Assembly: GCA_905181595.1 (NCBI GenBank)
Contig: CAJIYI010000002.1
Location: 124,001 to 188,000 of the forward strand
Length of the DNA stretch: 64,000 nt
Reading direction: 5' to 3'
From: an uncultured SAR86 cluster bacterium
GTDB lineage: Bacteria > Pseudomonadota > Gammaproteobacteria > Magnimaribacterales > D2472
A program made the position numbers and the translations under genes. Positions 730 through 21,321 of the stretch are shown piece after piece. Under the pieces are notes generated by a model that ran no database searches, was not told the origin of the DNA, and was given only the letters and a program-made list of their open reading frames with translations. The stretch's first letter is position 1, and the number at the start of each line of letters is the position of its first letter.

Positions 730-1808
730 GAAAAATAATAATAACTATTTTAGGAGCGCTGACATTGAGTCTTGTTGCATTTTTATGGCTTGGAAATGAA
801 AATAGCATTGAGTCCTTGGATGGATGTAAAGACAATGAAGAGCTGAAAGTCTACTGTAATTTTATGAATCCTGAAGATTTAGCGCTAACCCCAGATGGAA
901 ATTTTTTAATTGTGGCCGAGTTTGGCGGAATGGCACCATTGGTTGAAATGACATCTGGGAAATTAAGTTTTTTTAACATAAAAGATAAAACCAGATCTCA
1001 AGCGAAGATTACTTTTGGGGAAAATGAATGGGGCTCTGTTGACTGTTCTAGAGATCCGAGCATTCCCTTTGGTCCTCATGGCATTGATTTAGTTCAAAGA
1101 GAGGATGGAAAGCAGCAACTTGCAGTGGTCAGTCACCATCCAAATGAAAGCATAGAGATGTTTGAACTGTTAGAAAAAGATGGTTGGGTGCTTGAGTGGA
1201 AGGGCTGTGTTGATGTTGACGGCAAATATTATTTCAATGATGTTTCATTGGATATGTCTGGAAACTTCTATGCCTCTCATATGTTTGAATCTGACTTCTC
1301 AATGATCAGTGCCTTGTGGAATGTATTTGCCAAGTCAGATACAGGCATGGTTGTTAAATGGACTCAGGATAATAAATTTGAGGAACTAAATTTCACAGCT
1401 GGCTCTTTCCCAAATGGCATTGCATTAGATCAAAAAAATAATAATCTCATTGTGAATTACAACTTAGGGGATAAAAGCATTCTATTTGATCTGAATTCCA
1501 AACAATCTCTGGGAATCTACGAGCACAATTCACCTGATAACGTGGTCATCAAAGGTGGCTTTGCATGGGTTACTAATCATGATCATTCTGTTGCAGAATC
1601 TTTGGGGTGTGCCGAAACAGTTAATTGCACACTTCCTTTCTCAGTAAATAAATTATCTCTTTCAGATCTTTCATTGGTTGAGTCCTATAAATTTAAGAGC
1701 AAAAATATGGGAATTGGAACTGTTGGTTTGCCGCATGATGGATCCTTATGGATTGGTTCATACCACTCAGACAGATTAGCAGAGGCTAGCCTATCTTTTA
1801 GTGAATAG
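726..1808 (+). CDS. SMP-30/gluconolactonase/paraoxonase-like beta-propeller protein
   Basis: A protein of about 360 residues. I chose the ATG at 726, which overlaps the upstream stop, over a GTG at 711. The first 25 residues form a single hydrophobic segment after MRKII, so the protein is probably exported or anchored in the inner membrane facing the periplasm. GPHGID and FPNGIALD, about 100 residues apart, are the recurring strand motifs of SMP-30/strictosidine-synthase/PON-type six-bladed propellers, whose members are often calcium-dependent lactonases or esterases. The actual substrate is unknown. Being coupled to an alpha/beta hydrolase gene, it may belong to a small ester or lactone degradation unit; that is inference. 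Confidence 0.6.
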   Translation: MRKIIITILGALTLSLVAFLWLGNENSIESLDGCKDNEELKVYCNFMNPEDLALTPDGNFLIVAEFGGMAPLVEMTSGKLSFFNIKDKTRSQAKITFGENEWGSVDCSRDPSIPFGPHGIDLVQREDGKQQLAVVSHHPNESIEMFELLEKDGWVLEWKGCVDVDGKYYFNDVSLDMSGNFYASHMFESDFSMISALWNVFAKSDTGMVVKWTQDNKFEELNFTAGSFPNGIALDQKNNNLIVNYNLGDKSILFDLNSKQSLGIYEHNSPDNVVIKGGFAWVTNHDHSVAESLGCAETVNCTLPFSVNKLSLSDLSLVESYKFKSKNMGIGTVGLPHDGSLWIGSYHSDRLAEASLSFSE

Positions 1809-14136: not shown

Positions 14137-14141
14137 TAGTA

Positions 14142-14311
14142 GGACTGGTTCATTCGCCAACTTATCGAGATTCTTTGAACCGATAATATATTAAAAGGTG
14201 AATTTCCACTGCTGCTGTTGTGCATTACCTTTTGGGAAGCCTGATGCAGTATGAGCTTCGCCACCTGACCTCTCGGTTCAGGTAACGATGGGTAGCGGTG
14301 AATTGGTTCTT
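14142..14311 (+). ncRNA. ssrS: 6S RNA
   Basis: Regulator of sigma70 RNA polymerase. The location between zapA and fau is the conserved ssrS site. The fold matches: a closing stem pairs 14142-14154 with 14297-14309 (13 continuous pairs with several G-U). An inner stem pairs TTGAACCGA (14175-14183) with TCGGTTCAG (14273-14281). An apical stem pairs AAAAGGT (14193-14199) with ACCTTTT (14227-14233). Unpaired stretches between them form the open, promoter-mimicking bubble. The 3' block GGTTCAGGTAACGATGG resembles the conserved 6S segment. A TATAAT sits just upstream. Length is about 170 nt; the 3' end is estimated. Confidence 0.87.
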
Positions 14312-14324
14312 AATTTTAAAGTTA

Positions 14325-18231: not shown

Positions 18232-18753
18232 CTAAAGAACAGCTTGTATTGCAGTTACCAGTCTCTCAGACTCAGGCGTCACGCTTGATTTATAGTGTTG
18301 TACCTGTCCATCTCTATCAATCAGATATTTGTTAAAGTTCCAGTTAGGCTCTTTGCCAGAAGCTGCAATTAGTTTCTTATAAAGTGGATGTGCTTTTTTA
18401 CCGCTTACCTTAGCAGTAGCAAACATTGGAAAGTCTACACCGTATTCTGTACTACAAAACTCTGCAACTTTTGATTCTTCAGAATATTCTTGAAAAAAGT
18501 CTCTAGAGGGTATGCCTATGATTACTAATCCATCTTCTTTGTATTTAGAATACAATCTCTGCAAGCCAGCATATTGAGGGGTATAACCACACTTGCTGGC
18601 AACATTTACAACTAAAACCACATTTCCAGAGTACTTACAAAGACTTTGCTCATCATCAGAGTCTAATACTCGCAAGGAGCTATCAAGGATACCTGAACAA
18701 GCGAACGATTCAGTTGCAAAAAATAAAATTACTGTAAGTAGGATGTGTTTCAT
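18232..18753 (-). CDS. exported glutathione peroxidase-family protein
   Basis: A thiol peroxidase of the GPx family with a signal peptide. I chose ATG 18753, giving MKHILLTVILFFATESFA and a cleavage site before Cys, rather than a start 9 codons upstream. The peroxidatic site is VASKCGYTPQY (Cys, not selenocysteine), the Gln is in FFQEYSEES, and the Trp is in PNWNFNKYLID, completing the Cys-Gln-Trp set. Length is 173 aa. An export signal is unusual for BtuE-type enzymes, so it probably detoxifies peroxides in the periplasm. Upstream on the same strand are a tiny ORF and a structured RNA with a promoter. Confidence 0.85.
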   Translation of the reverse strand: MKHILLTVILFFATESFACSGILDSSLRVLDSDDEQSLCKYSGNVVLVVNVASKCGYTPQYAGLQRLYSKYKEDGLVIIGIPSRDFFQEYSEESKVAEFCSTEYGVDFPMFATAKVSGKKAHPLYKKLIAASGKEPNWNFNKYLIDRDGQVQHYKSSVTPESERLVTAIQAVL

Positions 18754-18763
18754 CCTAAAGATA

Positions 18764-18853
18764 TTACACGACAGGGGCAATGGCGTAAACAGATGATACG
18801 AACACAGATGCTAAGACAATGAGTTCAACTTTATCGATTAATTTTCTTTTCAT
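18764..18853 (-). CDS. tiny exported or membrane peptide (29 aa)
   Basis: ATG 18853 to TAA 18764 encodes 29 residues beginning MKRKLIDKVE, followed by a hydrophobic stretch (LIVLASVFVSSVYA) and a short tail IAPVV. It looks like a signal peptide with almost no mature part, or a single transmembrane peptide. It lies 10 bp upstream of the peroxidase start and 29 bp downstream of the terminator of the upstream RNA. No strong ribosome site is visible; two tandem CTTGAAA heptamers precede it. It could be a leader peptide for the peroxidase or a chance ORF. Confidence 0.35.
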   Translation of the reverse strand: MKRKLIDKVELIVLASVFVSSVYAIAPVV

Positions 18854-18881: not shown

Positions 18882-18919
18882 AAAAAAAGGACTGGAGGAC
18901 TTGCGTCCTCCATAATTCC
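18882..18919 (-). terminator. intrinsic terminator of the 18.9 kb RNA
   Basis: A 7-bp GC-rich stem (GGAGGAC/GTCCTCC, GCAA tetraloop) with a 3-bp lower stem and a seven-T run on the minus strand. The plus strand has no T-run after the hairpin, so it works only for minus-strand transcription. Confidence 0.65.
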
Positions 18920-18963
18920 AGAGAATTCATCAACACAACATAGGGGGGAGAAGCGTTGATGAA
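18882..18963 (-). ncRNA. candidate small RNA or attenuator leader, two hairpins plus U-tract
   Basis: On the minus strand a promoter (18996-18969) would start transcription near 18963. The first hairpin is a perfect 9-bp inverted repeat, TTCATCAAC (18963-18955 as GTTGATGAA on plus) with GTTGATGAA at 18934-18926. It encloses a 20-nt loop containing six consecutive C. The second hairpin is GGAGGAC-GCAA-GTCCTCC (18911-18894), extended by GGA/TCC around an internal loop and followed directly by seven U (18888-18882). This is a complete promoter-to-terminator unit of about 82 nt. It could be a free-standing regulatory RNA with a C-rich, Shine-Dalgarno-complementary loop, or a leader that attenuates the peptide and peroxidase genes. 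Confidence 0.6.
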
Positions 18964-18968
18964 ACATT

Positions 18969-18996
18969 ATTATATATACTTATATAACATTATCAA
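18969..18996 (-). promoter_or_regulatory. strong sigma70-like promoter on the minus strand
   Basis: TTGATA (18996-18991) and a perfect TATAAT (18974-18969) are separated by 16 bp, reading leftwards. The predicted start falls at the first base of the 9-bp stem of the RNA described at 18882-18963. Confidence 0.6.
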
Positions 18997-19158: not shown

Positions 19159-21321
19159 ATGACTGAACAGCTAAAAGGTAAAGTAAATTATTCTACTCAG
19201 GGAAATATCGCCATACTAGAAGTGGATAACCCCCCTGTAAACCCACTCAGTAGTGGTGTTCGAGCAGGTTTGTCAGAATATATACTCAAAGCAAATTCAG
19301 ATGACTCTATTGAAGGAATAATACTTACTGGAGCCGGAAGATCATTTATTGCAGGTGCTGATATCTCTGAGTTTGGTCAGAAACCTGATGGTCCTGACCT
19401 TCATACAGCGCTTCGTGAAATAGAATTCAGCAAAAAACCTGTTGTGGCTGCGATAAATGGAACGGCACTAGGTGGCGGACTAGAAACTGCTTTGGTATGC
19501 AACTATCGCATTGGAACAAATAAGGCGATTGTTGGGCTTCCTGAGGTGAATTTAGGCTTATTACCAGGTGCTGGCGGCACTCAAAGGCTGCCTAGACTTA
19601 TTGGGCCCTCTCAAGCCCTAAAAATGATGCTTGCAGGAACCCCAATGTCAGCTAAAAAGGCTTTGGATCAAGGTGTTATAGATGCAATATCAGAAAATTC
19701 TTTAATTGAAGATGCAATTCTATTTTTACAAGACAAAATTGGCCTGGATGAGCATCCCAAGGTTAGAGATAAAAACGATAAAGTAATTGAGGCAAGAGGC
19801 GATAATAATATTCTTGCAGAAGCAAGAGCGCTCGCAGCAAAAACACGAAGAGGTCAATTTGCTCCTGGGCAGATTATTGCTTGTGTTGAAGCTGCAATTA
19901 ATGAGGATAATTTTGATGACGGCATGAAAAAGGAAGCTGATTATTTCTTAGAATGCCTAGTGAACCCTCAGCGGGAAGCTATGATTCACATTTTCTTTGG
20001 TGAGCGAGCTGCTTCCAAAATAGCTGACATACCAAAAGAGACCCCTCTTCATCCTATCAACAAGGCTGGCGTTGTTGGATCTGGAACAATGGGCGGTGGT
20101 ATAGCTATGCTTTTCGCAAATGCTGGTATTCCTGTTTTAGTTTTAGATCAAGATGAAGATAACCTTAAAAGAGGGATGGGTGTTATTGAAAAAAATTACA
20201 AGATGATGGTAGATAGAGGTCGAATGTTAGAGGAGCAAAAAGATGCTGTAATGCAATTAATTACTCCGACTTTAACTTACGAAGATCTTTCAGAGGTCGA
20301 TATAGTTGTTGAAGCTGTATATGAAAATCTAGATTTAAAACAAGAAATTTTTCAGAAGCTAGACACCCATACTAATGCAAATGCCATCCTCGCATCCAAT
20401 ACATCTGGCCTTGATATTGATGCAATAGCATCATCAACATCAAGGCCTGGAAAAGTAGTGGGTACTCACTTTTTTAGTCCAGCAAACATTATGAGACTGT
20501 TAGAGGTTGTTAGAGGAGAAGAGTCTTCAGATGAAACAATGGCTACAGTAATGGCACTTGGGAAAAAGATGAATAAAGCATCTGTTGTCTCTCTAAATGC
20601 TCCAGGATTCATAGGCAATAGAATGTTATCTGGTTACACGTATCAAGCTAATATGCTCTTGCTCGAAGGTGCGCTACCTAACCAAGTTGATAATGCATTA
20701 GAGTCATTTGGAATGAGCATGGGTCCATTTAGAATGATGGACTTAGTAGGATTGGATCTTGGTTGGAGAGCAAGAAAACTTGCTGGCATAGAATCACCAC
20801 TTGTAAACAAGATTTCAGACGAACTCTGTGAGCAAGACAGGTTTGGTCAAAAGAATGCTAGAGGTTTTTATAATTATTCTGAGGGATCTAGAGCACCTAA
20901 TCCAGCTCCAGAAAATGAAGATATTTATAAATCAATTTCAGAAAAACATAATTTTGTTAGAAGAGAGATTTCTGACCAGGAAATTATTGATAGATGTATT
21001 CTTGCCCTAGTAAATGAGGGAGCTCAAATCCTCTCTGAGGGAGTAGCTCAAAGATCTGGGGACATGGATATTGTGTATATTAATGGATACGGCTTTCCAA
21101 TATGGAGAGGCGGGCCTATGTGCTATGCAAATATGCTTGGACTTGATGAAGTTACTAAAAGAATGGAGGAATTTGCTAAATCAGATGAGAAATTCTGGAA
21201 AATCTCTCCATTGCTAACAAAATTAGCAACTGAAGGCTCGCGTTTTGGTGAAGCGCCCTCAAAAGAAGAAAGAGAAGCAAAACTAAGCTTTAAAGACTCT
21301 AAAAATATGGGTGGTGTATAG
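19159..21321 (+). CDS. bifunctional enoyl-CoA hydratase / 3-hydroxyacyl-CoA dehydrogenase (FadB/FadJ-like)
   Basis: A beta-oxidation multienzyme of 720 aa. Residues 1-190 are a crotonase domain: GRSFIAGADISEF and GGGLETAL form the oxyanion hole, and LPEVNLGLLPGAGGTQRLPR carries a catalytic Glu. Residues about 295-480 are the NAD-binding dehydrogenase domain (VVGSGTMGGGIAMLFANAG), with the catalytic His in GTHFFSPANIMRLLE. Two C-terminal helical domains follow (NAPGFIGNRM and YINGYGFPIWRGGPM). It would hydrate enoyl-CoA and oxidise the hydroxyacyl product. No thiolase gene is adjacent, unlike fadBA. The layout resembles the peroxisomal-type/FadJ branch, but I do not assign a symbol. Confidence 0.9.
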   Translation: MTEQLKGKVNYSTQGNIAILEVDNPPVNPLSSGVRAGLSEYILKANSDDSIEGIILTGAGRSFIAGADISEFGQKPDGPDLHTALREIEFSKKPVVAAINGTALGGGLETALVCNYRIGTNKAIVGLPEVNLGLLPGAGGTQRLPRLIGPSQALKMMLAGTPMSAKKALDQGVIDAISENSLIEDAILFLQDKIGLDEHPKVRDKNDKVIEARGDNNILAEARALAAKTRRGQFAPGQIIACVEAAINEDNFDDGMKKEADYFLECLVNPQREAMIHIFFGERAASKIADIPKETPLHPINKAGVVGSGTMGGGIAMLFANAGIPVLVLDQDEDNLKRGMGVIEKNYKMMVDRGRMLEEQKDAVMQLITPTLTYEDLSEVDIVVEAVYENLDLKQEIFQKLDTHTNANAILASNTSGLDIDAIASSTSRPGKVVGTHFFSPANIMRLLEVVRGEESSDETMATVMALGKKMNKASVVSLNAPGFIGNRMLSGYTYQANMLLLEGALPNQVDNALESFGMSMGPFRMMDLVGLDLGWRARKLAGIESPLVNKISDELCEQDRFGQKNARGFYNYSEGSRAPNPAPENEDIYKSISEKHNFVRREISDQEIIDRCILALVNEGAQILSEGVAQRSGDMDIVYINGYGFPIWRGGPMCYANMLGLDEVTKRMEEFAKSDEKFWKISPLLTKLATEGSRFGEAPSKEEREAKLSFKDSKNMGGV

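Follow-up and report, generated by a model that had tools for sequence, protein, structure and literature searches.

A two-hairpin RNA with a C-rich loop in SAR86 bacteria is probably a new small RNA family that doubles as an operon leader

Among small RNAs (sRNAs) whose hairpin loops contact messenger RNAs, the Cuckoo RNAs, or alpha-proteobacterial sRNAs such as NfeR1, reportedly resemble the anti-Shine-Dalgarno sequence in their loops and attach to start regions. A compact, structured gammaproteobacterial sRNA termed sX13, which occurs in the Xanthomonadaceae and always lies downstream of polA, comprises 115 nt and three C-loop hairpins; through its apical C-rich loops (4-5 C), which pair with GGGG near start codons, it represses mRNAs at G-rich motifs without Hfq (PMC3771888). 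The C-rich loops of mycobacterial B11/6C act on a G6 tract within a 5' UTR, in a host without known Hfq or ProQ (PMC10470900). Another gammaproteobacterial sRNA, ErsA, is encoded at the polA-engB locus, and its regulation of amrZ has been reported to be Hfq-independent (PMC8575079, PMC5819304).

Here a predicted RNA of about 80 nt is described that is encoded on the minus strand (about 18962 to 18882) of a 64,000-nucleotide stretch of DNA, termed here the window, and that consists of two hairpins followed by seven U. The window comes from the genome (1.41 Mb, two contigs) of a SAR86 bacterium; SAR86 bacteria are among the most abundant uncultured bacteria of the surface ocean and have small genomes. 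By analogy, the mode of action of this RNA would be most like that of sX13 or 6C/B11, but it belongs to neither family. In place of the three C-loop hairpins of sX13 it has a single C-loop hairpin and a terminator-like hairpin, and it is located either ahead of an operon encoding a peptide and a peroxidase or beside sbcB, rather than downstream of polA. 6C is exclusively actinobacterial, has two C-rich loops instead of one and is not an operon leader, and the Rfam 6C covariance model failed to match the SAR86 RNA at its gathering score or at E values up to 10. The Cuckoo RNAs are alphaproteobacterial and carry a repeated CCUCCUCCC-like loop on several hairpins, whereas the SAR86 RNA has one loop, with the core CUC(U)CCCC; ErsA and Spot 42 differ from the window RNA in locus, and it has no Rfam match to either. 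More generally, Rfam scans at the RNA site yielded no family match, only sub-threshold chance matches, so that an initial annotation of this DNA, which knew of no named family with such a layout, holds with regard to Rfam, although sX13 and 6C/B11 are close functional analogues.

The layout that had been proposed from the window alone is borne out in its details. A sigma70-type promoter on the minus strand (18969-18996) consists of TTGATA (18996-18991), a 16-bp spacer and TATAAT (18974-18969); it is the best match (11/12) among 14 promoter-like sites in a 6-kb scan, and TTGATA recurs upstream of all 65 copies examined, whether in operons or standing alone. Because the totals of promoter-like and terminator-like sites are not above those of shuffled sequences, such single motifs prove nothing. 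The predicted start, near 18962, falls at the edge of hairpin 1 (18926-18963), which would form the 5' end of the RNA and whose 9-bp stem (TTCATCAAC, 18963-18955, with GTTGATGAA, 18934-18926) encloses a 20-nt loop, GCTTCTCCCCCCTATGTTGT, with six consecutive C at 18948-18943. After a 13-nt linker (UUCUCUGGAAUUA, 18913-18925) comes hairpin 2 (18912-18893), which is GC-rich and reads TGGAGGAC-GCAA-GTCCTCCA; together with the U7 tract at 18882-18888 it is likely to be an intrinsic terminator in the window genome. The fold energy of -30.7 kcal/mol compares with -14.0 +/- 2.7 for shuffled sequences (z = -6.1; 0 of 200 shuffles reached it). A 31-aa open reading frame (ORF) crosses the unit but is not conserved. 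A conserved leader peptide was also considered: several relatives of the window's genus have an ORF of 3-5 codons that begins at an AUG behind the loop. This reading was rejected because the length and frame of the ORF and the AUG itself are lost elsewhere and there is no ribosome site ahead of it. The window copy shows what is generally expected of an intrinsically terminated bacterial sRNA, namely its own promoter, a stable fold, a terminator with a U-run and no conserved internal ORF.

Covariation was assessed in an alignment of 63 sequences, comprising both operon and stand-alone copies, fitted to a covariance model. In this alignment 93.3% of cells are standard pairs and 13 of the 17 pairs have changed on both sides (8 of 9 in hairpin 1 and, for hairpin 2, UGGAGGAC-GCAA-GUCCUCCA, 5 of 8); the covariation score is 0.236, versus 0.123 for shuffles and 0.026-0.071 for slid controls. 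An independent MAFFT alignment of 17 sequences points in the same direction (6 pairs; 0.194 versus at most 0.066), and RNAalifold recovers both helices unprompted. The C-rich loop (GCUUCUCCCCCCUAUGUUGU, 18935-18954), which is the proposed pairing site, has a near-invariant core, CUC(U)CCCC, that 49 of 51 operon copies and all 14 stand-alone copies retain. Covariation of the stems, along with conservation of the C-rich loop among related genomes, had been named beforehand as the observation that would support the element, and both stems and the loop behave accordingly. Because of this conservation and covariation, there is almost certainly a conserved structured RNA at this site. One divergent operon copy, L105 (in G013), has the loop UUUCCCC and a hairpin 2 that has become G7/C7; in this single case loop and arm have changed together.

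A DNA search of 60 relatives showed that most genomes of the genus and of the family have the element in the same position. A covariance model built from 17 sequences (R1) was then run over 203 genomes of the order, and at E values of 1e-4 or better it matched 95 of the 107 genomes of the window's own family (f1), with all ten genera represented; in at least one f1 genome without a match, G023, the small ORF lies at a contig end. The same search found no convincing match in families f2 and f4, and among 369 genomes sampled from the class convincing matches were confined to the window's own family. Matches to two genomes of the class sample (G451 and G483) had the wrong layout and were discarded, as were weak matches in other orders and in a viral contig. 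A genome-wide DNA scan with a narrow pattern returned only SAR86 copies having at least six loop pyrimidines, along with unrelated chance matches.

In the window the element sits between a fadJ-like fatty-acid oxidation gene, which starts divergently at 19159, and a two-gene operon on the minus strand. The first gene of this operon (18764-18853) encodes a 29-aa hydrophobic, single-helix peptide, MKRKLIDKVELIVLASVFVSSVYAIAPVV, that is conserved among relatives (30 of 36 same-family genomes versus 0 of 24 other genomes of the order) and that matched no Pfam family; the second (18232-18753) encodes a glutathione peroxidase (PF00255, E = 1.5e-28) with an N-terminal signal-like segment. The peptide start in the window lacks the AAGG ribosome site present in most relatives. 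Operon copies all carry the promoter and both hairpins, with a small ORF downstream in 51 of 51 and the peroxidase downstream in 49 of 51. Their linker motif, UCUG(G)AA, occurs in 48 of 51 operon copies versus none of 14 stand-alone copies; that is, the linker is conserved in the operon setting only. The U-run is less constant: of the 51 operon copies, 26 have a run of at least four U after hairpin 2 and 18 a run of at least five U within 14 nt of it, as against 11 of 14 stand-alone copies with a run of the latter kind; the window copy is among the operon copies with the strongest U tract. Since about half of the operon copies lack a run of at least four U, free RNA may not arise everywhere from the operon locus. 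An additional copy, at 1518-1591 (-) of L080 (G155:C10), is accompanied by a short, damaged peptide ORF but no peroxidase, lies beside an alternative-oxidase-like gene and looks like a decayed operon copy.

Three genera of the family (g2, g3 and g6) possess stand-alone copies, which are orthologues of the operon RNA. These have the same promoter and loop, hairpin 2 and a U-rich tail, with no ORF behind, and so display the same features of an intrinsically terminated sRNA as does the window copy; their linker is short, A-rich and without the UCUGGAA motif, and what the two contexts have in common is hairpin 1 and the C-rich loop that it carries. Wherever neighbours were read, the copies are convergent to sbcB, which encodes exonuclease I. 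In the window's genus no second copy was found, weak model matches there being ordinary terminators. A terminated, promoter-driven copy with no gene in cis is hard to explain unless it acts in trans, and these orthologues therefore argue for a free trans-acting RNA rather than for a leader alone.

A conserved two-hairpin RNA that occurs both at the front of an operon and as a separate gene is probably a new regulatory RNA with a C-rich loop, and more specifically a new sRNA family that doubles as an operon leader; double duty as leader is likely for the operon copy. From these features we infer transcription, a split between termination and read-through, and action in trans upon targets, as follows. 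RNA polymerase would start at the conserved promoter, and the 5' end of the RNA would be closed into hairpin 1, which would display the C-rich loop CUUCUCUCCCCC. Hairpin 2 would terminate part or most of the transcripts and release a stable small RNA, while the exported glutathione peroxidase and the 29-aa membrane peptide would be expressed from transcripts that read through. Once released, the RNA would act in trans, independently of Hfq and ProQ, by pairing of its C-rich loop to G-rich sites close to start codons, and in some genera the stand-alone copy beside sbcB would have taken over the free-RNA role. Hfq was detected in none of 60 genomes of the order and ProQ in none of 40, with positive controls detected in both searches; hence the best precedent is the chaperone-free C-loop pairing of sX13 and B11/6C. 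That this is a new structured SAR86 RNA family of about 80 nt serving both as leader and as a free RNA pairing in trans without these chaperones is a reading to which we give about an even chance. More tentatively, and with somewhat less than even confidence, the RNA may be viewed as a family-wide redox-operon leader and free Hfq/ProQ-independent antisense sRNA, with a dedicated stand-alone copy in several genera, whose evolution from leader to sRNA is readable across genera. A conserved, promoter-driven C-loop RNA would open up post-transcriptional control in streamlined cells without detected Hfq or ProQ; its operon and stand-alone forms would constitute a natural experiment on the change from leader to sRNA, and would link it to an exported peroxidase and a new membrane peptide of 29 aa.

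Candidate targets were sought among 453 start regions from 464 kb of genome, a set that was partly picked around GGGGAG sites and is thus not unbiased. Loop pairing with these regions was no better than that of shuffled loops (in the bin from -20, 35 strong sites versus 51 +/- 6). In three genomes GGGGAG ahead of ATG outnumbers the reversed pattern (60 versus 23, 46 versus 25 and 49 versus 19), which shows only that G-rich ribosome sites exist. Orthologues were compared for two candidate targets, both dehydrogenase genes. One candidate site, AUAGGGGG ahead of a short-chain dehydrogenase gene, was rejected: its motif, AUAGGGG(G), persists in three close genomes only and drifts in the others, the G-rich letters varying among orthologues. 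The initial suggestion of a trans-acting sRNA whose loop pairs with Shine-Dalgarno regions is supported in its first part, by the terminated stand-alone copies without ORFs, but not in its second, the two top candidate sites not being clearly conserved.

The same annotation had offered, as an alternative, an attenuator ahead of the tiny peptide and exported peroxidase genes, and a purely cis-acting leader of this kind is the most substantial rival, possible but rather doubtful. Hairpin 2 would then serve for attenuation or block translation, and hairpin 1 would stabilise the 5' end or act as a sensor, jointly setting peptide and peroxidase expression, with the C-rich loop binding a protein, a ligand or the GGAGG arm of hairpin 2. 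The near-constant position ahead of the same two genes, the short distance between the end of hairpin 2 and the small ORF, and the restriction of the linker motif to operon copies all fit such a leader, as does the capacity of the loop, in all copies tested, for pairing with the hairpin 2 arm (-7 to -10.7 kcal/mol). However, there is no co-evolution between loop and arm (-8.75 kcal/mol for own pairing versus -8.74 for cross pairing), for which reason an antiterminator formed by this pairing was rejected, and hairpin 2 is very stable by itself. The stand-alone copies, behind which no gene lies, retain the promoter, the loop and the structure, and they speak for an sRNA.

Those copies likewise lack the linker motif, which tells against a different proposal, that the C-rich loop or the linker is a binding site by which the RNA serves not as an antisense RNA but as a platform or decoy for the ribosome or an RNA-binding protein. 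This is improbable: conservation of loop and linker beyond the stems, and the empty-handed search for pairing targets, would both be accounted for, but no specific protein candidate presents itself, and those RNAs with C-rich loops whose function is known pair with G-rich sites in mRNAs (PMC3771888, PMC10470900). Least probable is a DNA-level element, in which the palindrome of hairpin 1 would serve as an operator and hairpin 2 would be a terminator-like repeat of the ordinary kind. An inverted repeat at the predicted transcription start is indeed where operators lie; yet both stems tolerate G-U pairs and the loop varies in length (its C-run ranges from 4 to 9), which together argue for RNA and against an operator, and conservation extends from the arms to the central loop.

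In family f3 of the order, R1 weakly matches a hairpin, GTCAGCATTTCTCTCCCCTGAAAACTGCTGAC, located between polA and engB (E about 0.015 to 0.05). Its stem and CUCUCCCC loop, seen at L091 1565-1614 (-), at L092 1534-1583 (+) and in L262, closely match hairpin 1 of f1 in their letters, and on this resemblance the two are possibly homologous. The polA-engB gap is the locus of Spot 42 and ErsA, and sX13 lies next to polA; the SAR86 RNA may share an ancestral C-loop hairpin with the polA-locus sRNAs. Elsewhere in the window, 6S RNA was identified at 14139-14313 (+) (Rfam RF00013, 65 bits), between what we take to be a ZapA-like gene and a 5-formyltetrahydrofolate cyclo-ligase-like gene, the gap between two such genes being the usual place of 6S RNA.
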